Part shown: piece after piece, positions 10,541 to 63,663 of the stretch
How positions within the stretch are numbered: the first letter of the stretch is position 1
Layout: each line of letters begins with the position of its first letter
NCBI RefSeq assembly: GCF_026151205.1
Contig: NC_087077.1
Location: 15,226,983 to 15,290,982 of the forward strand
DNA from: Bolinopsis microptera
Taxonomy: Eukaryota; Ctenophora; Tentaculata; Lobata; Bolinopsidae
Direction of reading: 5' to 3'
Length of the DNA: 64,000 nt
The notes under the pieces: generated by a model
What the model saw: only the letters and a program-made list of their open reading frames with translations
Told to the model about the DNA's origin: nothing
Database searches by the model: none
Made by a program: the position numbers and the translations under genes

Positions 10541-10716
10541 TTAAAAGGAGGACAAATCTATACGTTTCTTCTTCAAGCAATTTAAATAAAATTCATGACA
10601 TTTAGTTTTATGTCATGCTGATTTATTTGTGACTTAATAATTTAAAATGTGATTCTTTGATAAAAGTATCAAATACTCATTTAACTACAGAACTTTCTAC
10701 AATCTGAATGGAGAGA

Positions 10717-12453: not shown

Positions 12454-12580
12454 GATGTTGAGTTGGTTGAGTTTGTTGTAGATAAAAAGATTGATTGAAG
12501 TCGATTGAAGTTGATTGAAGTTGATTGAATAGATTTGATACCTCCAATTACATTACATTTTTGTCATGTTGGTCATTTTG

Positions 12581-12630
12581 GTCATACCTCAAATTATTTG
12601 TTATATAGTAGTGTTGAAAGTATTAAAACT
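12581..12630 (-). repeat. 50-base 5'-terminal module of LINE B
   Basis: Identical to 5068-5117 of LINE A. In LINE B the shared ATG opens a ten-codon upstream ORF (ATG ACC AAA ATG ACC...TAA) well before ORF1. Likely a 5' promoter or leader. Confidence 0.85.
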
Positions 12631-12633
12631 CAT

Positions 12634-14427: not shown

Positions 14428-14440
14428 TTCCTGCTATCAC

Positions 14441-34400: not shown

Positions 34401-37400
34401 ACACATATTATACACATATTATACACATATTAAACACATATTATACACATATTATACACATATTATACACATTACATATATTATACACATATTATACACA
34501 TACTATACACATATTATACACGTCATATTATACACATATTATACACATATTAAACACATATTATACACATATTATACACATATTAAACACATATTATACA
34601 CATTACATATATTATACACATATTATACACATACTATACACATATTATACACGTCATATTATACACATATTATACACATATTATACACATATTATACACA
34701 TATTATACACATATTAAACACATATTATACACATATTATACACATATTATACACATTACATATATTATACACATATTATACACATACTATACACATATTA
34801 TACACGTCATATTATACACATATTATACACATATTAAACACATATTATACACATATTATACACATATTATACACATTACATATATTATACACATATTATA
34901 CACATACTATACACATATTATACACGTCATATTATACACATATTATACACATATTAAACACATATTATACACATATTATACACATATTAAACACATATTA
35001 TACACATATTATACACATATTATACACATTACATATATTATACACATATTATACACATACTATACACATATTATACACATATTAAACACATATTATACAC
35101 ATATTATACACATATTAAACACATATTATACACATATTATACACATATTATACACATTACATATATTATACACATATTATACACATACTATACACATATT
35201 ATACACATATTAAACACATATTATACACATATTATACACATATTAAACACATATTATACACATATTATACACATATTATACACATTACATATATTATACA
35301 CATATTATACACATACTATACACATATTATACACGTCATATTATACACATATTATACACATATTATACACATATTATACACAAATTATACACACATTATA
35401 CACATAATATTATACTTTGCCTTGATTTACTTTAAGACTGGAGTATTGAGCGTACTACAGCTATAATTGTATCTTTGCTCCTGGTGGTCTAAGTTCTAAT
35501 ACACCCCAACTCAGGGTCAGCTCAATGCCGATATATCCCGTCCCAAGCCCGCCGACCAGATAGAGCTCAGTTCCGCTAAGATGGGCGGTCTTACCTCCAC
35601 TAACGTTCAGTTCCCTGCCTACGATATGAGTCTGAAGGTGACATCAGAGGACGTGAAGAAAACTAGCGCTAGCATAGGTGTGAGATCTGACGGAACAACA
35701 GGTGTGAGATCTGAAGGAACAACTTGTCTTGTTTTCATTTTCTCTTTTACCTTAATCTAATTTAGAATGAAGCCCAGTCGACGAAGTTATGATGAAGTTA
35801 TACTAAAAGTTTATACCTTAATTTATACCATTTGTGAGGATGAACATGAACTAGTTGTCTTTACAGACGTCTCTGCTGCTGCTGCAATGAAAGTGAGCAC
35901 CACAACTAGCTACGCTGACCACTATCCGGGAAAGAACGTTAAATTTGAGAAGTCCGTAGCTGCTGTTCATCACGATGGTAACGCATTTTAAATTAATATG
36001 ATACGTAAGTCCGTAATTTTGTCTAGGCTGCAGAATCGTTTGAGCTCATAGTCATACACCTTTTTTTAATTGTCATAGACAAAAACTGCATACATTTTAT
36101 CAACATTTTATACCTTTGACGGAATGTGGAAGATTCTTTCACCATGCCGTTTAATTTATTAATTAATTAATTAATTATTAATTATTAATTTAAAAATAAT
36201 TAAAATTAAAAATAATTCATGATCTCCAGCTCACGCTACAGATCTTAGTACCCCTGGATATTTTAGTACAATCTGTGGCAATTGTGTTTAACTTTATTAT
36301 TGCAGTGCATTGCAGTGCGATGCTTGATGTTATAGTGACCATTGAACGATTCGTGGAAATAAGCGGCGTCATTTGTTGATAATTTTATTTACGAAATCTG
36401 AGAATTGGTGGTTAATAATCACAAGCTTGTATTCTCTGTTGCTGATTGCAAGCTGTTGATCGTTATAAATTATAATGTCTTTTATTAACAAATCTCGACG
36501 TCGAACTATTATTCCCGAAACTAATGGTGGTAAAACATGTCTCGAATCATTTTATTTTTGAATAGCCTTAAAGGCGCCGAATAATAAATGAAAGTCCGTA
36601 ATTTTATAAAAGATGTTAATGGTGCTTGGTCATTGTTGTATATAATATTATGTACAATATAACAAGTACATCACTTGACGGTTTAATAACGGGATAGTTC
36701 TAAATATCTGAACTTACTCTCTCCCTCAGAGCTGAAAGGTCCATCAGGAGAGCTCGAATTATCCACCGTCAACAAGTCAGACTATGTAACCTTCAAGTAC
36801 GGCCGACCCCATCTTAACACAATCCCGGACAACAATCTATTCGGAGTATCAGATAAGGATCACTCGAGCAAGAGAACCACTGCCAGGGAGCACTTCCCCG
36901 GCTTTAAGTCCGAGCCTGCTAAGCAAATAAAGTTCGTTTATTTCACACATTTTTTGAGTGCTTGAGAAATGAGATATTTGGAGCTATAATCGCTGACTTA
37001 AACTTACAAATCTTAAATTTTGGTATTTAACTGGACGTCCAAAACAACGATTTTATTTCTCCTTATTCAGTTATTGAGTTATCGTCACTCTTTTCAATAA
37101 TCATCCATCATAAATCCATTTGTTTCAGAGCAGAGGAAAATGGAATAGAGTTCGGTTCTGCGGACAGAACGAAAACGTCAGTTTACGGCGAGGATTTCAC
37201 ACAAACTGCACCTAAAGTTAGGAAGAGCAAACGAAGGGGAACTGGAGTGGACTTTGGAGCTGACTTCGATCATGTGACCAGTTATGGAACTCAGTTTGAG
37301 GTATGTGAAGCTGGAAACGGAATTTTGTTCTGATAATCTTACAATTATAGAGAATATTGTCCCAGTTCTAAACTGGTAACATGACTCCTGTCCGACAGCA

Positions 37401-40400
37401 CTATTGTCTTGTGTTTAAAGTGATATCTCAAATTTGACGCATAGAAACTCACCCAAACTTGCACAGATTATCCCTATTAAATTTAATAATCACGATTCTC
37501 AATACTGGTTACTGATTGCGTAAATCTAAAATCAAGAGATATCAATTACAAATCAAATAATTCTGTTTAAATTGTGACACTCTGTTCAGAGTAAATCAGG
37601 CGGCAAAGGGAAACTAGCGTCGTTTGATGACGAACTAACGTTGTTTAGTGGTAAACAAGACCTAACCACAATCGCAAGGGCGGACTACAAGGCCAAGGGC
37701 CATGATAAGGTCGGGGTTTTCAGACATAAACCAAAGGACCAAATCGAGGTTAGTAGTTACCTTACAAGACATATTTATGGCGGCCTAATTTGCGACGACC
37801 AAAATTTTGGCGGTCCGAAAATATGGCGAAATTGAACAAAAACCGTCAAATTTCGGACGTCACAGAAAATAAGGGTATTTTTCATCATTTTTTGTGACAG
37901 TAAGCAGTAAGGAAATTTCTGAAATTCGGTAAAATCATATTCAAACTTAGTCTGTATTAAGACTGTAAGACTTTCATGTTAGCACATACATGTATTTTAA
38001 TACAAATTTAAACTGTATTGCTTGACATTCAATTCGTCATTAGTGTGGTGATAATTTGTCCCAAGATGCCAGAATTTATTTATTTATTTTACTTGATATT
38101 ACTTTTTAGAAACAAAATAAAGCAGTGAAGGCACAGTCATTGAAATAAGCTAAAAGATAATGCGACGGATTCTATTACGACGACCGAAATTTTGGCGGTC
38201 CGAAAATATGGCGAAATTTTCGGAAAACCTCCACATTTCGTACGTTATAAATATGTCTTGTAAGGTAGTACACCCTTAGTATACCCTTAGTATACCCTTA
38301 GTACACCCTTATTACAGCTGTTATAGTAGTGGGAGGCGGTGAGGGATAGGTTGAAGCTTATGCTTGCAGCCAAAATTACTGATTTTGTCAATATCTCTAC
38401 AAATAAGCATTAAAGAGCTTATATTGCTTTATAACTTATAAGTTGTATATAATTGTGACTTTTGCGGTTGTTTTAAGCTAAGAATCGAGTAAAATGTTCT
38501 GGATTTTATGTTAATTTAATTGGTTTGGTATCGACGTTACATGTTTTAAATGTTTAATTACACTCCAGATCCCAAGCGACAAGATGACAATGGACACAGT
38601 AACTCTGGGACACTTCCAAGTGCCGGTAGTTACTGCTGATATTGTGGCTGATGTTAAATCTGCTGGCAAAGCAGCTCTTTCTAGTACTAAGGCTTTTGGT
38701 AAGACGTGTTCGTGGCACTTTTTCGTTAATTTAGATAAATTTAAAAGATGAAGTTATTTCTACTCGCTGACAGTTTATTTTATTTAAATCTTAGTGGAGA
38801 CTTTGATCCCTATTTTTGCAGATGTAACGAAGTCCATGGCCAACGTAAAGATGTCCTCCGATACCAGCTATAAACAACAATTCGAAACTAAAAAGCTAGT
38901 GAAAGTGGAAAAGTTCTCTTACCAAGACGGTTAGTTATTCTGAGGAATATAAGGGGCAAACCATACTATGACTGTTGTCAACATTACTGTTGTCACGAGT
39001 ACAGGCACGCCCTCTAAACACACTATGCCATTTTTCATGATTTTAGGTACGACCTCTAAACATACTATGACAATTGGCATAATAATAGTAAAAAGTGAGT
39101 GCTGTCACGTCGGCCGGGTGGTGTAGTGTTTACTACATTTGCTTCCCAAGCGGACGACCGATATCTGAACTAACTCTCTCCCTCAGAGCTGAAAGTTCTA
39201 AATATCTGAACTTACTCTCTCCCTCAGAGCTGAAAGTTCTAAATATCTGAACTAACTCTTTCCCTCAGAGCTGAATAGTTCTAAATATCTGAACTAACTC
39301 TTTCCCTCAGAGCTGAATAGTTCTAAATATCTGAACTTACTCTCTCCCTCAGAGCTGAAAGGTCCGTCAGGAGAGCTCGACTTATCCACCGTCAACAAGT
39401 CAGACTATGTAACCTTCAAGTACGGCCGACCCTATCTTAACACAATCCCGGACAACAATCTATTCGGAGTATCAGATAAGGATCACTCGAGCAAGAGAAC
39501 CACTGCCAGGGAGCACTTCCCCGGCTTCAAGTCCGAGCCTGCTAAGCAAATAAAGTTCGTTTATTTCACACATTTTTTTAGTGCTTGCGAAATGAGATAT
39601 TTGGAGCTATAATCGCTGACTTAAACTTGATTGATTTTTTTATTTGAAACTTTTACAAAATAGCAAATATACAAATGTACAAATCTTAAATTTTGGTATT
39701 TTAGCTGGACGTCCAAAACAACGATTTTATTTCTCCTCATTCAGTTATCGAGTTATCGTCACTCTTTTCAATATTCATCCATCATAAATCCATTTGTTTC
39801 AGAGCAGAGGAAAATGGAATAGAATTCGGTTCTGCGGACAGAACGAAAACGTCAGTTTACGGCGAGGATTTCACACAGACTGCACCTAAAGTTAGGAAGA
39901 GCAAACGAAGGGGAACTGGAGTGGACTTTGGAGCTGACTTCGATCATGTGACCAGCTATGGAACTCAGTTTGAGGTATGTGAAGCTGGAAACGGAACTTT
40001 GTTATGATAACCTTACAATTATAGAGAATATTGTCAGGGTTCTAAACTGGTAACATGGCTCCTGTCCGACAGCGACTCCTGTCCTACAGCGACTGCTGTC
40101 CGACAGCACTATTTTCTTGTGTTTGAACTTTGAGTGATATCTCCAATTTGACACATAGAAATTCACCCAAACTTGCACAGATTATCCCTATTAAATTTAA
40201 TAATCACGATTCTCCATGCTAGTTACTGATTGTGTAAATCTAAAATCAAGAGATATTGCAATTACAAATCAAATAATTCTGTTTAAATTGTGACACTCTG
40301 TTCAGAGTAAATCAGGCGGCAAAGGGGAACTAGCGTCGTTTGATGACGAACTAACGTTGTTTAGTGGTAAACAAGACCTAACCACAATCGCAAGGGCGGA

Positions 40401-43400
40401 CTACAAGGCCAAGGGCCACGAGAAGGTCGGGGTTTTCAGACATAAACCAAAGGACCAAATCGAGGTTAGTAGTTAGTACACCCCTAGTACACTCGCTGTT
40501 ATAGTAGTGGGAGGCGGTGAGAGGTTAGTAGTTAGTACACCCTTAGTACAGCTGTTATAGAAGTGGGAGGTTAGTAGTTAGTACACCCTTAGTACAGCTG
40601 TTATAGTAGTGGGAGGCGGCGAGGGGGAGGTTGAAGCTTATGCTTGCAGCCAAAATTACTGATTTTTGTCAATATCTCTACAAATAAGCATTAAAGAGCT
40701 TATATTGCTTTATAAGTTGCATATAATTGTGACTTTTGCGGTTGTTTTAAGCTAAAAATCGAGCAAAATGTTCTCGATTTTATGTTAATTTAATTGGTTT
40801 GGTATCGACGTTACATATTTTAAATGTTTAATTACACTCCAGATCCCAAGCGACGCGATGACAATGGACACTGTAACTCTGGGACACTTCCAAGTGCCGG
40901 TAGTTACTGCTGATATTGTGGCTGATGTTAAATCTGCTGGCAAAGCAGCTCTTTCTAGTACTAAGGCTTTTGGTAAGTCGTGTTCGTGGCACTTTTTCGT
41001 TCATTTAGATAAAACTATAAAAGATGAAGTTAATTCTACTCGATGACAGTTTATTTTATTTAAATCTTACACTTTGATATCTATTTTTGCAGATGTAACG
41101 AAGTCCATGGCCAACGTAAAGATGTCCTCCGATACCAGCTATAAACAACAATTCGAAACTAAAAAGCTAGTGAAAGTGGAGAAGTTCTCTTACCAAGACG
41201 GTTAGTTATTCTGAGGAATATAAGGGGCAGACTGCATACTATGATTGTTGTCACGAGTACAGGCACGCCCTCTAAACACACTGTGCCATTTGTCATGATT
41301 TTAGGTACGCCCTCTAAACATACTATGACATTTGGCATAATAATAGTAATAAGTGAGTGCTGTCACGTCGGCCGGGTGGTGTAGTGTTTAATACATTTGT
41401 TTCCCAAGTGGACGACCGGGGTTTGATTCTCAGTGGGGTCGGATGCAGGTCGGCCACCAAACCATGGTGTGAATCAGAATGGTAGATGCCCTCATTAGAG
41501 CTTCGAAAAACCCTTAAGCGAAAAATATATATTTTCAAATTGCGTGTTGCATTCGCCAAGAGTTATAAAATACTCTAAAGTGACAAATAATATGATGAAC
41601 ACTGAACAGTAGCCGTTACTAACACTACTAAGTATCTGGAACACAATTAACACGAATTAACACCAAATACCAATCGCAGAGATCCTCGCCAGCACCGGAG
41701 AAATCGACTTAGCCACCCTGAACAAATCTGATTACACCAAACACGGTTACGGTCGACCTCAGATTCACAAAACGAAGGATAACAATATATTTGGAATCAA
41801 CTATGATCTGGGCAAAGTTGGATTGGAGGTGAGATTGTAATTGTCATTAGTTTGTTCTCTGTTATCTATACTAATCATCTCAAAATGTCCGTCTGTGTGT
41901 GCGCGTGTAATTTCCGAGCGGCTTAATCTTGAAAACGGTACTAAGAGTTGCGGAACTGGTTTTTTCGGTATAGTTTCGACAAAAGTCTTACGAAGCCAAT
42001 AAGCAAATATTTTTTAAATCGGCCGGTGGTAAGTGGTTAAGGTTTAATTGATGGTTATTTACCCCAAATGTGATACAAAAGTGTCTCACTTTTTCCCTCT
42101 CTGACACTCTCTCTCTCTGACACTCTCTGTCCCCATTTATAGCTCCCCTATTACAGCTTTGGTTTATAATTAGGTCATTTTTGTAGAATTCATTATTGCT
42201 TATATAATAATAATTATACTAATATAATATAGATAATAATTATAATAAAAATCCCGACAAAATATCCCGACCCCCGGCCAACTTCCGGCCAATCCCAGCC
42301 CCCGGGTCCCGGGTCATCCTGGCCCCAAATCTTGATTCTAGTGGGCCTAGTTTAAAGTCATATTAAGACTGGACCAGTCTAACACCGCACCAGGGACAAC
42401 AGGAAATCGCGGCATGTGCGGAATCGCGATTTTTCCCATTATTTGCGACAAATTTTATGTATAGTTTAATGTATAGCCTGTTAAAAATCGCGTTATCGCG
42501 ATTTTTGGCCAAAATAATCGCAAAATCTGCACCGCACAGACGGAGGATGTAGATGAATACGGTCTGGATGGTATCAGCGTGTCACGTGGATCTGTGGGCG
42601 TGGTCCAGGCAGCAGCTGTAGATATGGAGGTACGCCACAGCCGCCCTCTGTTGTCCTGTCTCATTGAATGGTCTTGTCATCCTAAGTTGCTGGTGTTTTC
42701 TGATTAGGAAATAATTGACTGGATAACAAAGTGACGTTACAACATACAAAGTTATATTCGTTTGTAAGAAGTAGCCAGAAAATGAGAAAACATCAGCAAT
42801 TTTGAATACAAGACTTATAGTGTAGTCTTAATCTTTGTGCCTTACTCTAGTGCATTGCGTAGAGATTCTACTGGAGAGTGTTATATACTTGAGAGCACAT
42901 TCGAGAAATACATTTCTTAAAAACAAAAGAAAGCAAAACTCTATGTTAGTTGATAAATCTTCTGTACGTCACACGTGTTTTCATAAAAATATGACGTGAA
43001 TTTTCTCCTCATGAAAATATGGTGTATTTTCTTCAAAAATGTTAATCTCTTTCTTGAGTTATCTCATGTCATGACGTAGCTGTTATTATTTTTCAGTTCA
43101 TTCAACTAAACTTACTGTAAATGCGCGTGAATAATAAAATTTATCACAGCGATTCGACTTTATGTTTACCCCTTTTACTTTTAGTATTCGTTTAACCACA
43201 AATAACAAATAATTTTACCAATAAATTTTGTGTATTGCACACTAGAATCAATAATCACATAATTCGATTCATAGAACTGGAAATCACAGTTTTAAACAAT
43301 CACAGATATCATTAAAATGCTGACATCTAGCAAGGCGGCACAGTTCTGATCTGAAACGACCGGGTGCCAACTGCTAAGGTACTTACCGAGCCTTACTAAC

Positions 43401-46400
43401 ATCTTACAAAATTTATTTGTATTACTTTTTGTTGAAAATATTGTGCCCGTATCTTTTAATCGATACAGTTGAAACTTTTGTTGATGAAACAATGTACTGC
43501 AGACTGTGATGTGACTCATCTCACCCCAAACAGTATAACTGTAAGGTTGCTGTTAAGTTCATGTGATCAACAGGAATGCATTTTATTATATGCATATTTC
43601 CGAATCCTCGCAAGAACAATGTACATTCACAGCTTTGACATAGCAGATTAGCAGATGTTATAACTCGATGCCATATTTTGTATCGTGTTACTGCACTGTA
43701 CAGAATTATTTCGCGTACAGAATTTGTATACTTATTTTAAAACTTTATTTTGTACATTCTTCATATTTTATAAGACCTTAATTTAAAGATGGAGTTATTA
43801 GATTAAAATTAGCAATTTCTAATTTGTTATTTTTAGCAAGAGCAATTCTATCTCAGATAGTATCTGCAAATTCATTTTTAAATGAGATCGTGCACATAGA
43901 AATTGGGGACCCGAAATTTGAAATCTTGTGAATGAGAACGTTTTTTACATCTGCTCCACTACACTATGGTGGCTTTCACGGAAACAGGTTGATATTTGTT
44001 ATCTGTTTTATTAATCGCTTAGTATCGTCTTTTTTAAATTGACATTAAGTCTTGAAAATTATTCGAGAAGAATTTCTCTAATCGGATCATCAAATTATCA
44101 TCAAATTATTGATGAAGGAGTAACCTTACATTCTACCTACTACTCATTTCTCAAGATGTCCACTACATGATGTTGCTCTAGTACCACTTTGACTTATGTC
44201 CCTTAACCGCTTTTAACTACCGTTCACCGAACCTTGACTGCGTCTTTGTTAACAAGGTTTGGCCGGTAGAGGGTCTGCAGTAGTCCCATTATCTTAGTAT
44301 TGCTGTACAACTACTACAATTTTATTAACAATAAAACTTTGCTAATTTCCTTAATATTAGTACTTCGGTGAACTGAACTCTGCTGACCATCACCAACTGT
44401 TTAAATCAGTCGCATACTAGTTTTCTCTGTATACACCCGTCAACATTTCTATACCCCCTCGCTGGCCGACGTAAGTAAGGGGGTTAAGAAGGCAAGGGGT
44501 TCTGGCGAATGCTGACGTCATTAGGGGGGGGGGGGGGGTGTCACTCAATGCTAACAGTTGCTAAGAGAGAGAGGGGTAAAATTGGCTAAAATCTTTCTGA
44601 CGTCATATGTGAACGCTCCCTTCATAGGAGGAGTTAAGTCAATTATTAAGCTTAATTCTGAGCCACTCGCCCACACTCACACCGTGTTCGTTCCTACTTT
44701 GAATGCCTATCACTCAGATCATGTTCAGATCATATTAGTTTTACTTTATATTATATTAATCATCTTAGATTGTTTGTTGAATGATTATTAAAATTTAATT
44801 TAAAGTTTGTTGTTATGGATAGCATAAATTTATTTGCGACATCTTGGTTGACAGTACTAGAAGTTGGATACTGCAGTTAGTGGCTATTGTGTAATGTCTA
44901 GTAAGCCTTCTAGTTTCATGCCAACTATTGTCTTGCTTAGTTAATATTAGTTAATAATTAGAATAGTATACACTATACAGTCGATAAGTATCATTTGCAA
45001 TATATTAGTCGAGGACGTTGACAGTTGTTATTTTCAAAAGTCGTGATTTTTGACATTTACATCGCGGTGGTTACACACGATATCTACTAAATAATTTTCA
45101 ATTTTCTTACTCAGTGCAGTTTACTGCTTAGATTTAGAATTGACTTACTCTCGTCAGGATGAATCTCACATCAGAAAATGAACTCATGTTGCAAAAAGAG
45201 TTTCTTGTTTTACAAGAATTTCATGAAGAATTTTATGAAGAATTTCATGAACAAATACATCTCGTTGCCGACAAAAATATGTTCCAAAAAAAGAACGGGT
45301 TCACACTGTCTGACTACTTGAGCAACAGAAGAGAATTCTCTACAGTATGCCGGGAACACGCTGACCACCTCGAGAAATTTGCCATGGGTTCTGGAATCGC
45401 CAAAACAGTTGGAGGATCGGTAACTGTTGTGTCCGGTGGTCTTCTAGTTTTGGGAGTAATACTTTCACCCTTCACTTTTGGTGCTTCCTTAGGGTTAACT
45501 ATTGGAGGCATTGCTGGCGGGATTGTGGGATCAGGCACCACCATTGGTGCCACGATAGCTAAAGATCGCAATATTATGTCGGATCAAAAGAAAATCACGG
45601 AAGCTTTAAAGACATTTGAACACCAAGACAAAGTTGTCAGTACATTGCTGAAAGGAGTGAAGGATAATGTAAAGAGGATATCTAAGATTATTGAAAGTGG
45701 CATATTTGATAAGATATTACGGGATATTACAGGAGGTGGTATAGGCTTTATTTACAAGGGACACAAGCTCGGAGATATTATTGCCGACACTGTCAAAATT
45801 GCCACAAAGTTTGCGAGCATAGCTGATGACATTGCAGTAATTTCCGCCGAGACAACTGCCAAAGTATTCTCTGGTATTTTCGCTGGAGTTGGCATGCTCT
45901 TCGGGGCTTATGATATTTATAACGGGGTAAAAGATATAAAAGGGTCGGAAATCGCAGAAAAATTCCGTAAGTTTGCGAAGGAATATGACGAGGAGACAAT
46001 ATGTTTAGAGAATCAAATCTTTCGTCTGACCATCTGCTCCTTGAACCTTGACGTGTCTTTGAGACAAATTACAAATTACAAATGACTAGAACAAATTCCA
46101 AGAGGCACTAAAAACGTTTTGGATCCTTTTTCATTACAATGTATCTAAAATGTATACCAAATTTGCTTCAATCTTTGTCCTCTGATATTTACTATTTGTC
46201 CTCTGATATTTACTATCTGGCGTGACAGATATGATGAACGATCACTTGCGTACTGGACACTTAATGTTATTAATGTAATTTGATTATTCATGTTGCTTCA
46301 ACAAGGCCATATTTTGATGGTACAGATTTTTATATCTCCGTATTTTGTTATCACACTTTAATAAATAATAAATATGTATGTTATATTTTTTTTGTTGAAA

Positions 46401-49400
46401 AATTCATATATTGATTCTAATGTTCTGTTTCAAAATATTTTCAATAGAAAGTGCTGAATTTGAGCCAAACTTTCTCTGCGAAGGGAGACATACTTAGAAT
46501 GGATCCACGGTATCAAGGATGGTTATGGCACCATATTCTAATAATTTGTATTGATAAAACCTTTTAAAATTAACCAGCAATTGTTAGTTTCCCGGTTCTT
46601 ACAATTTCTATAGATTCTTGACAAATTGTTTTTTTTAATGTCAGGTGATTAGTCGATACGATAATTTTCTAATAAGCGGTGTTAAACAGGTCGACAGGAT
46701 TTTGCTGATCTGAAAATTATGTTTGTAATCAGTTCGATTCATGTAGATAGGCGGTGTAATACTGGGTTATGTTACAGCAAACATGAAGCCATTCCATAGT
46801 AATTTAGTCTTTGTACTTAAATGAACGCTAAAAGGCATTCAAAACCAACAAAAATCCGAATTTTTTCATTTTTTGGACGTTTTTTTAATTTCAGCAAATG
46901 ATTTTTAAATGCATTTTTATACATTTAGTAAGAAAAGCAGTCGGTAAGCAGTAAAAATGTTAAAATATGTGTACATGATCAGTGTATAATATCACATATC
47001 ATCTTCATCGAATGGGTTTTCGTTCATGAAATAGTCCATGATTAAAGCATCAGTGATTTCTAGCTTTATGGAAACATTTTTTATCAAACTACCCCAGTCA
47101 TGCATTTCAGTGTTAACTTTTACAAGCCATTCGGCGTGAAGTGGTTTTATCTTAGACAACTTTAGGCTAACCTTGACATCACGTGGAGCTTTCTTAGCAC
47201 TGTTGTCTGTTTCATTACCTCCCCTGAGTAATATGAACTATAACAAAGTCAGAAAATGTCCTTGGCAACACGATTTACCGTCATATTTAGAGGCTGGAAC
47301 AAGTTTGTAATGTTGGCGGGGACTAACTCATGAACTATGTTGTTGAGTGCCATAATTTCGTTGACTTTTTCCGCAAAGTGACCCTTGAAAACATCATATA
47401 CTAGTAGAGTTGTCTGTGCCTCCGGCAGACCAAGGAGCGAATAAATGGTCACGGAGAAAGTGTAACTTAAAGTTTAACGAGGTCGAGGAATCTAATCACA
47501 ACACAATTAAATGACCGGGTGAAGGGGATTATTGTTATTGATCACGTATTTCTACGGAAATGTTATGGTGTACGAGGTCGAGGATACTTTACTCACTAGC
47601 CAGGGTGATATCAGGAAGTGAATTACAGAGTTTATTTTTTTACTTTTGACTATCGTTTGTACGAGAAAATATAATTTAAAATGGAAGTGCGTCTAGGTTC
47701 TTTAGACGTGTTTGACCGCTTTATTTTTTCCCTTTTTACTCCATTAGTAGGGAGATGTTCACTGTTCAGTGTGCACTTTGCTGTATAGAGTTGTTTGCTA
47801 CTGAATCGAGTTAAATAGGGCATTGATAATGATAACCCTCTAGTTCCATGGCCAATTTTTCACTGTATTAATACGCTCAAAAAAATATATCAGATTTTTT
47901 GGCTCTCTCTTTTCGATTCACTGAATTAATACAGCTTTAAAAAATCGTAAACATGTTTACGATTTAATTTTTCTCACTGTATTAATACAATAGACAGTTT
48001 TTGGGAATTCCAAATAGTTTCTGATTAATCTGATTTCTTGCGACAAATGATACTGCACTGTTAGGATAAACGACGTTTCAAAGTAACAACTTCTTATTCA
48101 TGCTGAAAAAATTGGTAAATATGTGAGAAAACTGTCTCATAAAATTTATTAATCATAAATGGCTAAACGACAACAAATTGTTCAAATACTAGACTAAAAT
48201 TAGAATCAAAATCTATATATACACCAATACTCGATCTGCTATTCAATAAACCTAAAACATCAACTAAACAGCAAGTACGTGATTGTGATCGTGTGATGGA
48301 ATGACATGTACAGTGATAACAGATAATAAGGTAAAAGATACAATACATGTGAGATGGTGTATACACAATGTGAGTGAAATTATAGTGATTGAGAGCGAGA
48401 TGTGAAAAAACATTAAAACTTACTACTACTAGAAAACTGAAACTGTATGCAATAAAAAGGGAATGAAACTAAAATATCTAAAATTCTTCAGTACTAGCTA
48501 TGATAAAACGTTTAATAGTATCCAGTTCTTCTCTCTTGTTAATTATAGGGTTCAGATTAATAATAAACATCGCTTCGAAAATCTTTCTTCTGACAGTATT
48601 GGGCTCAATTCTTAAAACATCTACTTCTAAACTGGGATTTAACCCCTCATGACAGCTCGAATAATGTATGGCAAAAACTTGACTAACATTAGAAGGGGTA
48701 GCAGGGTAGCTGTAGCGTAACGTAAGTGTTCACCTACACGAGCATGTACTTTCCTACTGGTTTCTCCAACGTACAGCTGGTCACATAATTTACACTTAAT
48801 CTTATATACAACATTCTTCACTTCACAATTTTTATTACAAACTATCGAAGGACAAATTTTACATGAATTAATACTGCACACACGTTTATCATACGGTCTG
48901 TTACTACATAAAATATTTCTCAATTTCGAAGTAAAGTTTACTTTAATAGGTAAATTGTTCTGCTTTACATAATTTCTAATCTTATTGCTAGTACTGTCCG
49001 AAATAAAATCTAAATTAAGAACTGTCCTGGAATCATCCTCAACACTCTGACGCCTGTTAGAATTACTACTGCTACAATAACGTCTTGGGTTCTGCAGGTA
49101 ACCGTTTTTCTGTAATAGATCATCAAGGAGTCTGAGAAAGTGCTCCTTTTCCGCTGGGCCAGATGAGATGCGGCAAGCCTCGCTATATAGGTTCTTCACT
49201 GTATTAATCTTAACAGACTCAGGATGACAAGAGTTGTTGTGCAGGGTAATATCCTTTTGTTGCGGCTTGCGGTACAATCTGCTGGTTAATTTACCGTTTG
49301 ACTCGATCCGGACCTCAGTGTTCAGGAAGGGGATAAAATCGTCCTGTTGTTCTGGAAAGTCGACCTCCCACTTCAACTTTTTGTCCGGATCTTGGTCTGC

Positions 49401-52400
49401 AATCTGTTGAACCAGAGCAAGGGCTTCTTCTTTCTTCTCTGCAGTACTGGCAGCATCATCTATGTAGCGTTTGTAGAAGTTCGATAAGTATACCGATAGG
49501 TAGTGTTGATCGGTGTAGATAGAGTTCTTCTCGAACTTGCACACTCTAATGATGGCACAGAAGGGCCCTGGCCTCAAACCCATGAACAGACCATCCTGCT
49601 GTAGCCAGAGAGTCCTGTTATACACAAAGAAAGAGTTGGTAGGATGTGTAGTAGGATCTCATGAATGTCTGTCAGGCTGAGTCCCATCAGGTCCAAACTC
49701 TCTCGGTGCTCTGTAGCTAGCACAATGACATCGTCTATACAGCCTTGTACGTTGATGTTAGTGTATAAAGCTGAAATATCCGCGGCAAAGAACTTTCTCC
49801 TGGCAAGCTGTTCCTGAGAGATCTGGCGGAGCATCTCTATGTGCTGCATTAAATTACTCAGGTGACTAGGCACCTGTATTAATACAGTCGCTGTGGTCGT
49901 TATCGATATTATAATTGCATTTTGTTGTCCCGCAAGTTTTTGGGATTAACTTTATTCGTCTGGCCGCAGTCCTGATCTTGCCCGACACCACCAATAGTAA
50001 TACGCGTATCGATTACTGCGTGCAAATTAATACGGGCATGGAGCTTTCCTAGCACTCTTGTCTGTTTCATTACCTACCCTGAGTAATGTGAACTATAACA
50101 ACGTCGGACAATGTCCTTGGCAACACGATTTACCGTAATATCTAGAGGCTGGAACAAGTTTGTAATGTTGGCGGGGACTAGCTCATGAACTATGTTGTTG
50201 AGTGCCATAATTTCGTTAACGGGTGATACTCGTAAAATATCTGTCCAACTCGGCGCGCGTCCTGGTAGGTTGTAAACCTACAATAATTTCGTTGACTTTT
50301 TCCGCAAAATGCCCCTTGAAAACATCATATACTAATGGAGTTTTCTGTGCTTCCGGCAGACCAAGGAGAACCTTTCTGTCGTTAACTTACGGCACAATAA
50401 AGTTCTCATAGTTGTCTTATTCTGGACAAAAAGTTCGAATTTTTTGAAAAAAATTCAACGGACTTTATTTGAACGGACATTAAGATGAACTTTAGGGCCT
50501 CCAGCGTTCAATTAATGTCCGTTCAAATAAGGTCCGATAAGGTAGATTTAGAATTGACTTAAATTGAACAATTTGTTAAAGGAGGTTATGTGGGGATGTA
50601 CGGATAGTATTCGCCACTAGGAAACACCCTTCCATCTGTGATACACTAATGAAAAATCGACAACTGGGACAACTGGAAACCCTTGATGTAGGACAACAGA
50701 GGTGCAAAACTTGCCCCGTACTATTTGACAAGGAGTCAAAGATCATGGTCAACAATGCAACATAGAACTGGTGCTAGACGGAACTCTAAAATGCAAGGGC
50801 AAGCATGTTATCTATATTTCACATCCGTCTTAATGGCCACCATAGTAAAATTATTTGTTATATTGAGAACAAAAATATCTTTAATTTTGAAACTTTTAGA
50901 TTTGGGATCATAAAGAGACCAAAACCAATTTTATTAGACAGAGAAGAGTCAAGATTTTGTTCAAAATTCAAAACTAACGTTTGGAGATAAAACGGTAATT
51001 TGCAAATTTTTAGATTTCTTTATTCATCTCACACAGTGCATTTGATACATTTGGTCGTGTTTACAAATAAATCAGATATATAGAAGAGATAATATTATGC
51101 TTTTAGTGTTACCGTCACTACTTTAACGAGATTTCTTAGCGTTATCAATTTACAGTAATGGGACACAGCAGTTTTAACTTTTAAGACCGATTAGTGCATT
51201 TTTGTTTGATAAGTAGTTCTAGTCATTGCCTATCAGCTTTACTAAAGTGTTTAGTTTGTTTCATGCTATACTATAATTTTCCAAGTGGACTTGTGTCTTG
51301 TACCCCAATCCCCATCCATAATTACTTACATGCTACGAATTTTGACTGATTAATTTTTGCCTTTGTTACAATTTTTACGTTTGAGTTAATAAACTATGAT
51401 GATTATAATATATGAATTTTACTTGTTAGAGTGCCTATCTTAAAGTAACATGTTTTTACAGGCTCTAATGATGTAGTTTAACGAAGATTTCAAGCCTTAC
51501 GTTGTGTGTTTCCCTTCATGACCGAAAGCATTATATGCATTAGAAATAGAATTGACCTACTCTCGTCAGGATGAATCTCACAGCAGAAAATGAACTCATG
51601 TTGCAAAAAGAGTTTCTTGTTTTACAAGAATTTCAGGAACTAATACATCTCGTTGCCGACGAAAATACGTTCCAAAAAAAGAACGGGTTCACACTGCCTG
51701 ACTACTTGAACAACAGAAGAGAATTCTCTACAGTATGCCGGGAACACGCTGACCACCTCGAGAAATTTGCCAAGGGTTCTGGAATCGCCAAAACAGTTGG
51801 AGGATCTGTAACTGTTGTGTCTGGTGGTCTTTTAGTTTTGGGAGTAATACTTTCACCCTTCACTTTTGGTGCTTCCTTAGGGTTAACCATTGGAGGCATT
51901 GCTGGCGGGATTGTGGGATCAGGCACCACCATTGGTGCCACGATAGCTAAAGATCGCAATATTATCTCGGATCAAAAGAAAATCACGGAAGCTTTAAAGA
52001 CATTTGAACACCAAGACAAAGTTGTCAGTACATTGCTGAATGGAGTGAAGGATAATGTAAAGAGGATATCTGAGATTATTGAAAGTGGCATATGTGATAA
52101 GATATTACAATACATTGCAACCAAGCGACTCAAGAACAATATTCCAATCCGGAGTTTACATAAGATATCGGGTCAAATTAGTACCACAGGAGGTGGTATA
52201 GGCTTGATTTACAAGGGATTCAAGTTCGGAGATACTATTGTCGATGCTGTCAGTATTGCTTCAAAGTTTGCGAACATAGCTGATGACATTGCAGTCATTT
52301 CCGCCGAGACTGCTGGTAGAGCTGTAATGGCTGCGGGAAGTACAACTGCCATAGTATTCTCTGGAATTTTTGCTGGATTTGGCATTGTCTTTGGGGCTTA

Positions 52401-55400
52401 TGATATTTATAGCGGGGTAAAAGATATAAAAGGGTCGGAAATCGCAGAAAAATTCCGTAAGTTTGCGAAGAAATATGACGAGGAGACAATATGTTTAGAG
52501 AATAAAATCTTTCGTCTGACCATCTGCTCCTTAAACCTTGACGTGTCTTTGAAACAAGGACAAATTACAAATGGCTAGAACAAATTACAAGAGGCACTAA
52601 AAACGTTTGGGATCCTTTCTCATTACAATTTATCTAAAATTTCTACCAAATTTGCTTCAATCTTTGTGCTCTGATATTTACTATTTAGTTTTAACTGGCG
52701 TGACAGATATGATGAACGATCACTTGCACTGGACACTTAATGTAATTAATGTAATTTGATTATTCATGTTGCTTCAACAAGGCCATATTTTTATGGTACA
52801 GCTTTTTAAATCTCCGTATTTTGTTATCACACTTTAATAAATAATAAGTATGTATGTTATATTTTTTTGTTGAAAAATTCATATATTTATTGTTCTGTTT
52901 CAAAATATTTTCAATAGAAAGTGCTGAATTTGAGCCAAACTTTCTCTGCGAAGGGAGACATCTTACTATATATAAAGCGAGACGATATATATATATATTT
53001 CGTTGCTGTACTCCTACACATTAAAAGTCGGTGTTGATTAGATCTTCGAAATAGTTCTTTGCATCATTTTATTAAACATCGTTATCTGAGATAAATTTGT
53101 TCTAAAAGCAACTGGAATATACACAAATCTTTAAAATAACTTACAAACTAGGAAAGGAAAACAAGTCTTAGGAAGACGTACAAAACTATTTGACTCAAAA
53201 CGGTACAAAACTTATATATATATATATTTATCCGTGCCATTTTACTGACACCACGGCATCAACTTTAACGCGAATTTCTGCAAAAACCGTAAAAGATATA
53301 CAACTGAAACCTTTTTGACTGGGTCAAATGCTTTAATGGCCTCCAAATCAGCATGAAAAAATAAAAAATTGGCCAAGAAATAGGAGTTTTAGAGCCCAAA
53401 ATTTGGTACCCCAAGTGGTGTCAAAAACGCGAATTAAATAGGTAATAATTGTTTTAGTCTCTTGAGTCTTGACACCATTTTAGGGTTAGACGGGTTCCTG
53501 CTAGTACTTATAATGGATCCACGGTGTCAGGATGGTTATAGCACCATATTCTAATAATTTGTATTAATAAAACCTTTTAAAATTAACCAGCAATTGTTAG
53601 TGTCCCGGTTCTTAACATTTTTATAGATTCTTGACAACTTGATTATTCAATGTCAGGTGATTAGTTGATAAGATAATTTTCTAATAAGCGGTGTTGAACA
53701 GGTCGACAGGATTTTGCTGTTCTGAAAATTATGTCTGTTATCAGTTTGATTCATGTAGATAAGCTGTGTAATACTGGGTTATGTTACACCAAACATGAAG
53801 CCATACCATATTGATTTAGCCTTTAAACTTCTTAGGGATCACATGACCCTACGTTTCTAATACTGTTGCAATTGTGTGTCGCTCGCTTTCTATTATATCT
53901 ATACTTTACGTCTATCATTATTATTTAAATTTACATTATGATTATGAACAACTTTTCTTTGATTTAGCTTTAAATGTTTAAAACGTTTTTAATGTTTAAA
54001 TTTAAGATTAAGCAAAAGTAGGATGTGTCATTCTGATGATACAGAGCTGTTAGAAGTGCTTTTAAGCCAAGTCGAGCTGATCACTAGCAAAGATGAATTC
54101 TACAAAATGTATGGATTTACTCTTGAAGATTATTTATCCAACCGAAGAATCTTCTCGAAAATTTGTCGAGACCACGCTGACCACATTGAACAATTTGTTA
54201 AAGGATCTGGGATTGCCAGAGCGATCGGCGGCTCAGTGACGATTGTGGCTGGCGGAGTTGCTATTTTAGGAATTATTTTAGCACCTTTCAGTTTGACTGC
54301 TGCTGCTTCATTAGGATTGACTGTCGGTGGAGTGGCAGCTGGAATGTTAGGAGCAGGAACATCAGTCACCGCCGGAATTGTCAAAGACTCAAATATAAGG
54401 TCGGATAAGAAGGAAATTGAGGAAGCTTTGGAGAAATTCGAAACCCAAGAGGATATAATAAATAACCTGCTAGAAGGGGTCTACGAAAGCTTAAATAAAC
54501 TTTCTTATCTCATGAAAAAAGGTCCAACTGAAGTTGTGATCGCAATAAAAGGACTTGCAGGCGCCAGTGGTATGGCAATAAAAGGAGTGAGACTAGCTAA
54601 AACAGTTGGGACCACAGTCAAATTAGCAGACTCAGCCAAGATTGTCAGCTTCGCAAATAATGTTTCCAACTTTATTGATCCAGCTGCTGTAAGCACCATC
54701 GCAGAGGCTCCAGGACTGCGCCTCTTTGGTAAGGCAGTAGTAGTTGCTGGCACCACTACAGCTAAAGTATTCTCAGGAGTGTTTGCTGCGTTTGGTATCG
54801 GAATTGGTGTCTGGGACATAGTTACAGGTACCAAGGATATTCAGGGCTCGGAGATTGCAAATAATTATATAGAGTTCGCTGATCAGTATGACGAGAACAC
54901 TGCAAATCTAATAACCGGAGTCGAGCAGCTTTCTAGGTTACTTGACCAAAATTGTGATACGCATTACGCAATGATTTAGAAGTAGAATGGTGTGCGTTTT
55001 GAATTTAGATTGTTTTATACAAAAGGTGAATAAAGTTGTAATAGATGAAAAATTGGACCTTTAGCGATTGTTGAAATTCAACATCTAGCGTCATCTAGCG
55101 TCATATAGCGTGAAATGACGGTTAAGGTCCGAAAAATCAACGAGGCGAATCAAAAGTAAGTTACACAATATTATGTTAGTTAGGATATCATGTCGAGAAG
55201 GGTTTATTAGGCTACCTCCTCTTTTAGAAACTCGCTGGTTCTAATGCTTGGTGGATCCTGGACATTCAAGTAAGCTTATTGCTCACTAAATCTAGGTAAA
55301 CTATAGGTAAAAATATAATATTAATCATAAGCTAAAATGTACTAATCTTTGTATTCTAAATGGGGAAAAAGAAGAAACATTGTCAGTCAGTCGAGAAAAT

Positions 55401-58400
55401 TGTCAGTCAGGCTATATGGCAGCTTTGTGGATGTTGTGACTATGCTAGTACATCTAAACTAATTACAACACTACAAATCTATTATATTTGCTCACTAATC
55501 ATCAATTGGAGTAAGGTGAGATTTATAAATTCACTGATACTGATAGTTAGTGAGCAGCGATAGATAGCAAGTGATCATTACCCATCCTCCCAATACAGCT
55601 TATCACTTCTGGTAGTGTCATATTACATATATTAAAGCATACATCATAAGATACATACTACACAGTGTAGACTAGCTGCGTTGACCACGAACTGGTAGCT
55701 AGAGAATATATCTATATTTTATATGCTGTTCTCTGCTGAACATTTCGTACTCATTTTCGTTACCAGTTATGTACATAGAAGATGTGTTACTGATACGAAT
55801 GTTGAAGTTCATTGTTTATATAATCAGTTTTGATGACCTTTTTTAAAAAAAGTTCATCAAACCATTTTCCTACTGTTCCCATTTCAGTGGTGCAGCGTAG
55901 CTTTTAGTTTTATGTTTTCTTGTTTTTTCGGTTGAATTTGATATTACCATCTTTATTGTCTTGACCATTGACCAAGATTTGTCACGGTAGTAAATATTGT
56001 TTAACAATAAAATGTATGGTCCCTACTTTTGATTAGTTTAAAATATATCTAATATTTTTCTTATGAATCACATTCACACATTTGCTCACATTTGAGCCAT
56101 TTAGAATGAATGATACGGAGCTGCTACTCCTGCTCCTTAACCAAGTCGAGCTGATCATAAGTAAAGATAGCTTCCACAAATTGTATGGATTTATTCTAGA
56201 AGATTACCTAACTAACCGGAGAATATTCTCGAAAATTTGTCGTGACCACGCTGACCATGTCGAACAATTTGTAAAAGTATCTGGGATGGCTAGAACGGTG
56301 GGCGGCTCAGTGACGATAGTGGCTGGTGGAATAGCTATTTTGGGAATCATTCTGGCACCTTTCACTGCTGCTGCTTCATTAGGATTGACCATTGGAGGAG
56401 TGACCGGGGGGATCTTAGGAGCTGGTACCTCAGTCACGGCAGGAATGGTGAAACACATCAGCATTAGATCTGATAAGAGGAAAATTAAGGAAGCTTTAAA
56501 GAAATTCGACGCCCAAGAGAAGGTTATCAGCGTTTTATTAAAAGGAGTTCATGACAATTTAAATCTTTTAACTGATCTAAAGAAAAGAGGTGTGACCAAA
56601 TCCAAAGCTGGAATAGCATTTAAAGGGCTGACAGGTGCTGGTAGTGTAGCTATGGACGGAGTCAGGTTAGCAAAAGCTGTCAATGGAACAGTTACATTTG
56701 GTAAGTCTGCCAAACTGGCCGCATTTGCAAATAATGTTTCTACTTTCATCAGAGCGGATGTGGCCCATGCCACGAACTTAGCAGAGGGGGCTGCTGCTCC
56801 AGGACTCTTTGGTAAAGCAGTGGTAGTTGCTGGCACCACCACAGCTAAAGTGTTTTCAGGAGTGTTTGCTGCATTTGGTATTGGGTTAGGTATATGGGAC
56901 ATAGTTAAGGGTGTAAAGGACATTAAAGGTTCAAAGATTGCGCTCGCTTTCAGAGAGTTTGCTGATGAATATGATGAGAGCACTGAAAAATTGCTAATCG
57001 GGATTGAGCAGTTGCCTAAGTTGATCCATCATGACTGTGTTCCGTGACTTAAATTTTGTATTTAAAATTTTCAGACATCATCCTGATCTTTCGTTGTGCT
57101 TAGCTGGTGGAACATGTACGTGATTCTACCGTTTTTATTTACTGTACATATTATAAATATTTTATACAGGATGTACATGTATTTCATTAATGGTCCAGTA
57201 AAAGTTATTATCGTTATTTACCCAAACATTTTTCGCTCTTTTGAGAGGGTCAATCATGATTGATTACTGGGGACAATACTTGATTTTTTTTTCTTCATAT
57301 TGAGAGGATAATATAGTAATAAATTTATCCAAACATTTTTAACGACTTTGACTATTTAATCTTTATGTATATTTTGATAAGATTCATGATTAAGTTCAAC
57401 AGCGCTTATTTTACAGTTGTTATTGCTTAATAATTATTGTCATTCAGAATTGGTTATGATGCAATTAAATTTATTTAGTTTCATTTTCGCTCGTAGAATG
57501 TATTGAAACTGGGGATCTTATTATACTTTTTAAAACTAAAAATTTACAATCCATCTCTAAGTTAAGACCTGTTCTCTCTTCAACCTTAACCCTTGAGTTC
57601 TTCTTCTTTTTTCATCTAAAATAGAACAAAATATATCAAAAGTATCGGTACTAAATTTTGATCAAATAAATGTGGCACAAGAATTCTGTTTTCGAATGAT
57701 AGTTAATTATACGATGAGAACTATATCTGGATACCGTGCTCTTATCATTAAACGTCGACTCTTACTTTTCTTAAAAAGTGCAAGTGTTTTCCTTGTCGCA
57801 ACAACATGATAGTCAACAATTTGGACGTTGTCATTAGTAAAGTCAATCCCAATCAAGATATTTTATCCCGGGAATTGAGAAAATTTGGCTTGAAATACGT
57901 CGGGAATCCTGGTGTCGGGATCGACGTAATATCGTGAGTGGCTGACTCTAAACCACTTTCCCGTGCAGGTAGAAAGTTTGCCTTCATCAAGGAGAAGTTC
58001 GGCGGGAATAACGGTGGGAGTTGACAAAGTAGCCAAGTTCAAATCTGCTCCTGCTAAAGCTAAAGGGTAAGCCAGATCAATGTAGTGAACATGGGTGCTT
58101 CAGTCATCAGTGCAGATCACATCAATTTTGTTTACATAGCGATTCTTATGTGTTATATGTTTTTTATAGTTGACCGGAAATGTTTCAAATTTGTGATTCC
58201 AATTATGGAAATGGTTGGAATTTCAAACATTAAATTGAATTATTAAATTTGAAACTGAAAGTATTGAGATCATTTTGAAATGTATCTGCTTCAGGTAGTT
58301 TCTTAATTCATATTCCATATTAATTATACTGTTGCTGAACATTAGTCAGCGGAGGGAGGAACATCTTGGAATTGTTATAAAAAGCAAACCGTTATGGAAT

Positions 58401-62020: not shown

Positions 62021-63663
62021 TTAGGGGTCGTTAAAGCTAACTAAGATATACCGTGTACCTTGAGTAATTGGCTTTCCTTCATGATAATGGGTTAATCTTC
62101 CGGGATGCATCAGAGTCCAACCAATCTGAGGAACAATTGCAAATTACTAATTGGATAATTAACTAATAAGGCTAGTTTTGGCTCACCCTTGAATACCTTG
62201 AATACCTTGAATCTTGATGCATAAAACATGACCCTTGAAGCCTTGAGAGTGTTTCTAAAAATTCCAACAATTTGTGACTCAGTCAATACACTGCAAATTA
62301 AAATCACTAGTTATTACACTTACATCAACATCTCTGACGAGACAGTTCTGTCTGATAAAATAGCTGCCACCACCCTGAAATACGAGATATGTTAGAGAGT
62401 GCTGAAATATTAAAGTTGGTATGTTAGAGAGTGCTGAAATAATAAAGTTGGTATGTTTGCTTACTTAGTTAAATATGTTACCGTTTCACACCAACGTAAC
62501 TTCCACTCCATTAACAAGTAGTTAACCATTAGTACAATTACTAAAATATCTGATCACACCTACACAACTATTATATTACTGGAACTTTGTTGGTTTCATA
62601 CGATAGTGTATCTCAGCAACGAGTGATAACATACAATAGTGGCACTCATAACCTGTAAACTGTAAATTACTTACAAATCTTTAACCGCTACGACACCTTT
62701 CACAGTTTATAACCGTGACAAGGACAATTGGAAAAAATAACCAGAATATAACAAATCCGAAACACACACCTGATAATCAATACCCTGTCTGTTGAGAGCA
62801 GTGTTGGTGGTAAAGGTGGAGTAAACACACACCTGATAATCAATACCCTGTCTGTTGAGAGCAGTGTTGGTGGTAAAAGTAAACACACACCTGATAATCA
62901 ATACCCTGTCTGTTGAGAGCAGTGTTGGTGGTAAAAGTAAACACACACCTGATAATCAATACCCTGTCTGTTGAGAGCAGTGTTGGTGGTAAAAGTAAAC
63001 ACACACCTGATAATCAATACCCTGTCTGTTGAGAGCAGTGTTGGTGGTAAAAGTAAACACACACCTGATAATCAATACCCTGTCTGTTGAGAGCAGTGTT
63101 GGTGGTAAAAGTGGAGTGGTCATGGTGGGGACGCAGCTCTCTCTGGCCTTCTTCGTGGTACTTAACCACAAAACTTAGCAGTGCGTTACCGTGGAAGGAG
63201 TAACCTTCAAATACTAGACGCTGAATGGGAGCTACATAGTCTCGCAGCAGTTTCATCCACTCTTGCTGAAATATTAGTTTTATCTACCGCTCGATTGAGA
63301 AGTTCAGACTTAAATGATGGGGGCGAGGCAGAGTGATCATGTTATTGTAAGCATGATAATTACAATAACACCTTTTAAACCTTTGTAACCGGTTAAAAAG
63401 CCGACAACTGGATGCTAACAGGTGTTGTGTCCAAATTCCCAAAGTGAAATATTTACAAAAAGATAATTTAATGATTAATGAGCGACTTCATTAACCAATT
63501 AAATAAGCCCCAACCTGGAAGTTTATTTGAGTAAAATGAACGTCGACAGTAGGAACATTCTCGTACCCTCCCTGCAGTCTCTTATCATCAGTTTTACCAG
63601 ATCCAGCAAATATGTCTCCAGGCATGCTCTCAAGTTCGTGGATTATGTGCCAGGAGAACTTGG
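62021..63663 (-). CDS. PLOD: Procollagen-lysine 2-oxoglutarate 5-dioxygenase (lysyl hydroxylase), last four exons
   Basis: PLOD enzymes hydroxylate lysines of procollagen in the ER. Minus-strand exons 63515-63663, 63065-63265, 62324-62374 and 62021-62125 all join in phase with GT-AG. Encoded in order: [113 protein letters not shown]-stop. HHD in RPHHDHS gives the H-x-D iron ligands, the His in GRLTHYHEG the third ligand, and the Arg of GTRYI binds 2-oxoglutarate, so the catalytic domain is complete. The first visible exon starts in phase 1, so more exons lie beyond 63663, past the window end. The exon ending DYQ has a six-fold repeated donor. Confidence 0.92.
62762..63118 (-). repeat. Six-fold tandem array of a PLOD exon end and donor site
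   Basis: A 58-bp unit made of the last 45 or so exon bases (TTTACCACCAACACTGCTCT through GATTATCAG) and the donor GTGTGTGTTTAC is repeated with near-perfect identity. Exon-end positions are 63065, 63007, 62949, 62891, 62833 and 62770 (last spacing 63). The rightmost is the first met in transcription and the only one keeping the frame; reading through the first donor reaches TGA within one unit. Confidence 0.95.

Follow-up and report, generated by a model that had tools for sequence, protein, structure and literature searches.

Apolipoprotein L (ApoL) proteins are known mainly as a fast-evolving defence family of vertebrates. This article describes four ApoL-like genes of the ctenophore Bolinopsis microptera that lie in tandem within one intron of another gene, in a stretch of 64,000 nucleotides (hereafter the window; contig NC_087077.1, positions 15,226,983 to 15,290,982). 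The host is a gene resembling those of the stabilizers of axonemal microtubules (SAXO-like; 31302-59341, plus strand), and its 15.3-kb intron 16 (42630-57968, plus strand) contains copy 1 (45159-46085, 308 amino acids), copy 2 (51571-52578, 335 amino acids), copy 3 (54023-54979, 318 amino acids) and copy 4 (56106-57047, 313 amino acids). All four are intact single-exon frames on the plus strand, that of the host, and lie wholly within the intron, as the first-pass annotation had proposed from the letters alone. Their matches to the Pfam family ApoL (PF05461, curated cut-off 25.9 bits) reach 56.9, 57.1, 45.3 and 45.2 bits, respectively, and in each intronic copy (4/4) this is the sole Pfam family above its cut-off. 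When the intron was shuffled 200 times at the mononucleotide level, no stop-free run exceeded 199 codons, so four frames of more than 300 codons are not a product of chance. A fifth copy was detected outside the window, inside a talin gene, and all of the copies detected (5/5) are thus nested, in two unrelated cytoskeletal hosts.

The four predicted proteins share one layout, consisting of a conserved charged segment, a glycine-rich hydrophobic hairpin, a charged part, a variable middle, a second hydrophobic segment and a charged tail. In hydropathy profiles the hairpin appears as two adjacent hydrophobic segments about a P-F turn (residues ~65-133), and both this element and the C-terminal hydrophobic segment are present in 4/4 copies. 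No clear signal-peptide-like stretch is found at the start of copies 1-3; the maximum hydropathy over 11 residues within the first 35 is 0.88, 1.06, 1.53 and 1.97 for copies 1-4. In vertebrate APOL1 and APOL3 the hairpin is capable of membrane insertion, and killing depends on its loop (PMC7891394), and by analogy the products of the intronic genes may be regarded as putative intracellular membrane-inserting proteins. Like vertebrate ApoL (APOL1-6), the family shows tandem duplication, and its products share with the vertebrate proteins a Pfam match above cut-off (in copies 1-4 and in frame one of the fifth), the glycine-rich hairpin, and a further hydrophobic stretch close to the C-terminus that precedes a charged tail. 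The ctenophore genes differ in having ~64-83 amino acids ahead of the hairpin, single-exon coding frames and no Pfam match at the N- or C-terminus: in all four copies profile positions 1-71, the part corresponding to the N-terminal four-helix bundle of known structure (PMC8316464), are unmatched, as are those after 186, the part in which ApoLs have a membrane-addressing and leucine-zipper region and where the ctenophore proteins show a hydrophobic segment and a charged tail.

The copies fall into two pairs. Copies 1 and 2 are identical at 89% of aligned residues (synonymous divergence, dS, 0.069; nonsynonymous divergence, dN, 0.053) and were duplicated recently, copies 3 and 4 share 69% of their residues with a dS of ~1, and between the two lineages dS is saturated or undefined. 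The family has expanded in tandem through two or more rounds of duplication, the split between lineages 1/2 and 3/4 and then a duplication within each, and with all four members open the picture of a family growing within the intron, drawn in the first-pass annotation, is borne out. The same annotation held that flanking DNA had been duplicated along with the genes, which proved true of one pair only. For pair 1/2 homology extends from 31 bp before the ATG to ~733 bp past the stop of copy 1: the leader of copy 1 (45128-45158, plus strand) is homologous to that of copy 2 (51540-51570, plus strand), both carrying the identical acceptor-like site, and the 3' flank of copy 1 (46086-46818, plus strand) was co-duplicated with that of copy 2 (52579-53830, plus strand), with 91-95% of aligned bases identical and ~540 bp of extra DNA on the copy 2 side. 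For pair 3/4, 300-bp flanks align no better than shuffled ones.

Copies 1 and 2 stand 4.7 kb apart, a distance filled for about 4.1 kb with repeat-like DNA that includes a probable transposon (47184-50368) with direct repeats at its ends (47184-47437 and 50039-50368); a minus-strand frame within it (48639-49658) has a weak GIY-YIG match of 16.4 bits, below the Pfam cut-off of 22.6, and the element is presumably of the Penelope type. It is followed by a 41-bp stretch (50543-50583, plus strand) in which 19 bp from the leader of copy 1 adjoin 21 bp from the coding sequence of copy 3, each match being weak alone (E 0.094 and 0.013). An alternative origin of the 19-bp match at 50543, upstream of copy 2, is a target-site duplication; given the adjoining 21-bp match an ApoL remnant is the likelier of these two unproven origins. 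Dispersed repeats then occupy 50584-51539, immediately upstream of copy 2. They gave 49 genome matches with 40 of 369 candidates scored, and 26 of the 48 non-self matches terminate at 51533-51537, that is, at the edge of the copy 2 homology. Since repeat DNA ends exactly there, the original edge of the duplication may have been overwritten. A genome search with the 559 bp ending at the ATG of copy 1 returned the self match only.

Coding constraint differs between the pairs. The dN/dS ratio of pair 3/4 is 0.207 (0.14-0.28) and all of its coding indels (5/5) are multiples of three; the pair is old and under purifying selection, and on both grounds copies 3 and 4 are taken as real genes. The large coding indels of pair 1/2 measure 69, 33 and 24 bp and keep the frame, with further ones of 4 and 1 bp within the last 18 bp, while none of the 8 indels in the 3' flank has a length divisible by three. 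Residue changes between copies 1 and 2 are fewer in the Pfam core (4 of 113) than elsewhere (28 of 186; Fisher p 0.0017).

Messenger RNAs (mRNAs) separate from that of the host could be produced through spliced leaders. Four leader RNA genes with conserved flanks occur within 83 kb on contig C13 of the genome; their leader ends in AAATTAATTTGAG, followed by GT, and the published spliced leader of the ctenophore Hormiphora has the identical ending (PMC8527503). A search for the leader motif with up to one mismatch yielded 133 matches against 87 in the reversed control, and for this reason only exact matches were counted. Of the five exact matches listed, four are those clustered on C13 and one lies on C10 without their flanks. 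In the window AATTTGAGGT matched twice (0.41 expected), both times on the minus strand (5073 and 12586), and neither match is near the ApoL-like genes. Acceptors were scored with a model built from the 19 acceptors of the host and applied to the 859 AG dinucleotides of the intron, in which the AG one base before the ATG ranks at the 98th percentile for copy 1 and at the 99th for copy 2; copy 2 has a near-equal acceptor 109 bases before its ATG. The hexamer AATAAA, common in A+T-rich DNA, is found 275, 258, 50 and 271 bp past the stops of copies 1-4. Spliced leaders are carried by 56% of Hormiphora Iso-Seq reads (PMC8527503), and given this frequency and the acceptor-like sites, trans-splicing is plausible for copies 1 and 2. 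The likeness to ctenophore spliced-leader trans-splicing has two parts, leader genes ending in the same AAATTAATTTGAG and an acceptor-like site before the ATG of copies 1 and 2, and the leader RNA genes offer a possible route to nested mRNAs distinct from that of the host. Interference between transcription of the host and of the nested genes, taken as likely in the first-pass annotation, is a possibility.

The explanation that we consider probable, with moderate confidence, is that the array grew within the SAXO-like intron and that its members yield separate mRNAs for cytosolic membrane-inserting proteins. An intronless ApoL-like gene would have lodged in intron 16 and multiplied there, giving lineages 1/2 and 3/4 first and then dividing within each, the array having arisen in place rather than arriving in parts; the latest duplication would be recent, with a gene and its 3' flank copied together at the DNA level. 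All four would be transcribed in the host direction and yet give their own mRNAs, the precursor, whether long or short and separate, being cut into host and ApoL mRNAs by means of AATAAA signals and spliced-leader acceptors. The resulting cytosolic proteins might then put their hairpin, and perhaps the C-terminal hydrophobic segment, into intracellular or pathogen membranes in the manner of vertebrate intracellular ApoLs; the immune or stress role that the first-pass annotation proposed for them would be speculative.

Several observations weigh against this explanation. At the protein level, the Pfam match spans just positions ~72-186 of the 298 in the profile, searches of the PDB with the ApoL proteins found no credible relative (best E 0.018 and 0.17), and copy 4 begins with a short leucine run, so that a membrane-targeting start is less firmly excluded for it. 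As regards expression, the sites underlying the acceptor model are not independent, because ten of the 19 come from a duplicated cassette of the host; copy 1 has a better-scoring acceptor 39 bases before its ATG; and the best AG within 150 bp of the ATG reaches only the 81st, 78th and 92nd percentile for copies 3, 4 and the fifth copy, which, lacking a good acceptor close to the ATG, differ in this from known ctenophore trans-spliced genes. In pair 1/2 the dN/dS is 0.77 (bootstrap 0.42-1.49) and neutrality is not rejected for the whole protein, replacement and silent changes stand in a ratio that is not significantly different in the core and outside it (p 0.17), and copy 1 lacks a conserved 11-amino-acid stretch before the second hydrophobic segment that is kept in copies 2-4. 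Fast evolution, which the first-pass annotation mentions for the vertebrate copies, finds partial support here, pair 3/4 being under plain purifying selection.

It is from the younger pair that the strongest competitor draws, namely that the copies are dying duplicates or relics, still open by recency (1/2) or by luck. A ratio whose interval includes 1 and the stretch missing from copy 1 agree with it, as do the probable 41-bp remnant and the split fifth copy, which suggest that copies do decay. Relics would not, however, have stayed open for as long as pair 3/4, with its dS near 1, low dN/dS and exclusively in-frame coding indels, and the ApoL core is poor in residue changes between copies 1 and 2; decay is therefore considered unlikely as an account of the array, while deserving some weight. 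A little less credit is given to a stronger version of the favoured explanation, in which the intron works as an operon: spliced-leader trans-splicing would divide a precursor made from the host promoter into the mRNA of the ciliary gene and a set of mRNAs encoding membrane-inserting proteins, the whole family residing in introns of cytoskeletal genes. Were this so, copy number could grow through a promoterless unit needing just an acceptor, a frame and a polyadenylation site. That the duplicated unit lacks a promoter, given its start 31 bp before the ATG, was the first interpretation of pair 1/2 and is now retained in the operon version only. A 2021 paper states that no operons had been described in ctenophores (PMC7986045).

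The same acceptor-like sites invite another alternative, that each ApoL frame serves the SAXO-like gene as an alternative final exon, joined to exon 16 (42540-42629, plus strand) to give SAXO-ApoL fusions. The sites of copies 1 and 2 are strong, on the host strand and downstream of exon 16, as a fusion would need. The last base of exon 16 is a codon boundary, however, and by eye its junction to the -1 acceptor of copy 1 or 2 gives TGA at the eighth codon, which makes fusion through that site improbable; copies 3 and 4 have no good acceptor at the ATG. With the acceptors next to the ATG examined, fusion is judged very unlikely.

The number and location of ApoL-like genes were examined in the whole assembly (264.65 Mb, 232 contigs), in which the number of matches is a minimum and failure to match does not prove absence. 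No COX1 gene was found in this assembly. The genome-wide count suggested in the first-pass annotation gave five loci, on which the PF05461 profile and two protein queries converged identically: the four intronic copies and one split copy outside the window. The latter lies on the plus strand of contig C2, between exons of a talin gene on the minus strand, and is therefore antisense to its host. Nine of ten minus-strand frames near it match talin-type domains in Pfam. Read from right to left, FERM_M, two Talin_middle matches in order and VBS2 precede the ApoL-like locus, and beyond it come R4, VBS (whose 19.4 bits fall short of its cut-off of 21), IBS2B, a rod segment/VBS and I/LWEQ. Talins have FERM at the start and I/LWEQ at the end. 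The fifth copy is divided into two overlapping frames with the junction near a run of six G, which may be a true frameshift or a base-calling error; frame one matches Pfam ApoL with 46.8 bits and frame two has no match. The two pieces are 55-56% and 51-52% identical to copies 3 and 4, and 48-52% and 44-48% identical to copies 1 and 2; the first piece was left out of the dN and dS comparisons. Directly upstream of this copy, within talin, a long minisatellite with short repeat units (L001:844-3831) was noticed by eye.

The presence of all five copies in two unrelated hosts, with repeat DNA adjoining copy 2, could be explained by a mobile element inserting into introns with the ApoL frames as its cargo. 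The SAXO-like intron and the two talin stretches compared with it (L001 and L009) have only ApoL coding sequence in common, with no shared flanks or termini, and the repeats upstream of copy 2 occur genome-wide while ApoL-like sequence was found at just five loci; transport as cargo is accordingly given as little credence as fusion. Nesting as such is common in ctenophores, since in Hormiphora californensis 2357 nested intronic genes are described and 14,265 protein-coding genes are annotated (PMC8527503). If the five copies are counted as two independent places and ~1 in 6 genes is nested, two out of two would be expected by chance in ~3% of cases, a rough figure taken from Hormiphora rather than from Bolinopsis; an all-nested pattern beyond chance is suggestive and not proven. 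The idea of the first-pass annotation that an open intron had served as a nursery for the family is weakened, nested genes being ordinary in these animals, and is favoured slightly by the finding that the other ApoL-like locus is also inside a gene. The Bolinopsis array resembles the nested genes of Hormiphora californensis, which lie within a single host intron, with several to a host, many of them in parallel orientation and many flanked by transposons (PMC8527503), and differs from them in consisting of tandem paralogs of one family whose other detected member sits in a second host. Nested genes and spliced leaders have both been described for ctenophores already (PMC8527503), and the second host of the ApoL-like family is an extra twist. 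With five of five copies nested in two hosts, the family offers a concrete case for studying how same-strand nested genes are expressed in animals with trans-splicing.

Ctenophores are often placed as the sister branch to all other animals, and if the genes described here are true orthologs, the ApoL family would be as old as animals. The Pfam ApoL family is centred on animals, which was counted against a recent acquisition from a bacterium or virus, a scenario that would account for the coding frames without introns. Two short peptide patterns searched in prokaryote genomes and two in viral contigs matched 127 and 190 stretches, respectively, of which 0 were confirmed at the sensitivity of the search, and genes or transcripts named ApoL are mentioned for a sponge (PMC9012834) and for mussel haemocytes (PMC4581086); such an acquisition has hardly any probability. 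In the open PMC literature no report joining ctenophores and ApoL, and none of nested or intronic apolipoprotein L genes, was found.

The host gene comprises 20 coding exons for 888 amino acids, with a continuous frame across 19 GT-AG introns whose borders were chosen by eye at GT...AG. The first-pass annotation called it SAXO. A cysteine motif in the first exon and a top PDB match to SAXO1 (8ou0, E 8e-4) agree with that name, and the score of 22.4 bits against Pfam SAXO1-2 does not, since it falls under the cut-off of 26.5; the gene is for this reason named SAXO-like. It shares with SAXO1 and SAXO2, the stabilizers of axonemal microtubules, the N-terminal cysteine motif and internal repeats, and differs from them in its length, in a duplicated five-exon cassette and in scoring below the Pfam cut-off. 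It is single copy: of 21 genome matches, 20 fall on its own exons and one other is weak (E 4.1e-4).

The exons that close intron 16 (exons 17-20; 57969-58066, 58465-58541, 58790-58935 and 59264-59341, plus strand) belong to the same gene, given that frame and splice sites are continuous and that the peptide they encode, in its exon 17-19 part, shows homology to the cassette of exons 5-6 (36.6 bits; maximum of 100 shuffled peptides, 22.7). The possibility, raised at the outset, that SAXO ends before 42,700 and that these exons form another gene, the ApoL-like genes being merely intergenic, has in its favour that unspliced exon 16 runs through 25 further codons to a TAG (by eye) and that the exon 17-20 peptide has no Pfam family, and in view of the continuity and homology just given it is most improbable.

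Within the host, exons 5-9 (36730-38929, plus strand) and exons 10-14 (39353-41200, plus strand) form a near-exact tandem duplication that includes the introns (36730-41200), and the SAXO-like protein has been lengthened recently by ~257 residues through this cassette. Host intron 2 (32464-35410) is filled with a TATTATACACA-type minisatellite, with ~1.1 kb of other sequence inside (~32960-34066), and beyond the 3' end of the gene a ~58-bp tandem repeat of about six units occupies 62760-63110, both as seen by eye.

Elsewhere in the window, a candidate long interspersed nuclear element (LINE-like) lies on the minus strand at 7544-14433. Its frame at 12601-14433 has weak gag-like and zinc-knuckle matches, both under the Pfam cut-off, the frame at 10717-12552 contains, besides a weaker match to a GDSL esterase-like domain, an AlkB-like 2OG-Fe(II) oxygenase domain (E 1.2e-20), and the region 7544-10540 encodes an endonuclease and a reverse transcriptase. 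Esterases are known in LINE-like elements; an AlkB-like oxygenase appears unusual in one. In the remainder of the genome, 32 matches to the glutamate-receptor ligand-binding domain were obtained, 10 of them in single open frames of more than 900 amino acids and several close together (contigs C3 and C12), which points to a large and partly single-exon set of ionotropic glutamate receptors. A ctenophore origin of the genome is well supported by the leader RNA genes on C13 and by two receptor matches. For the receptor locus L005 the best match was the ligand-binding domain of ML032222a (407 bits), which we take from its number to be a Mnemiopsis leidyi gene, followed by kainate receptor 2 (243), and the best match of L003 was also ML032222a (212 bits, against 189).

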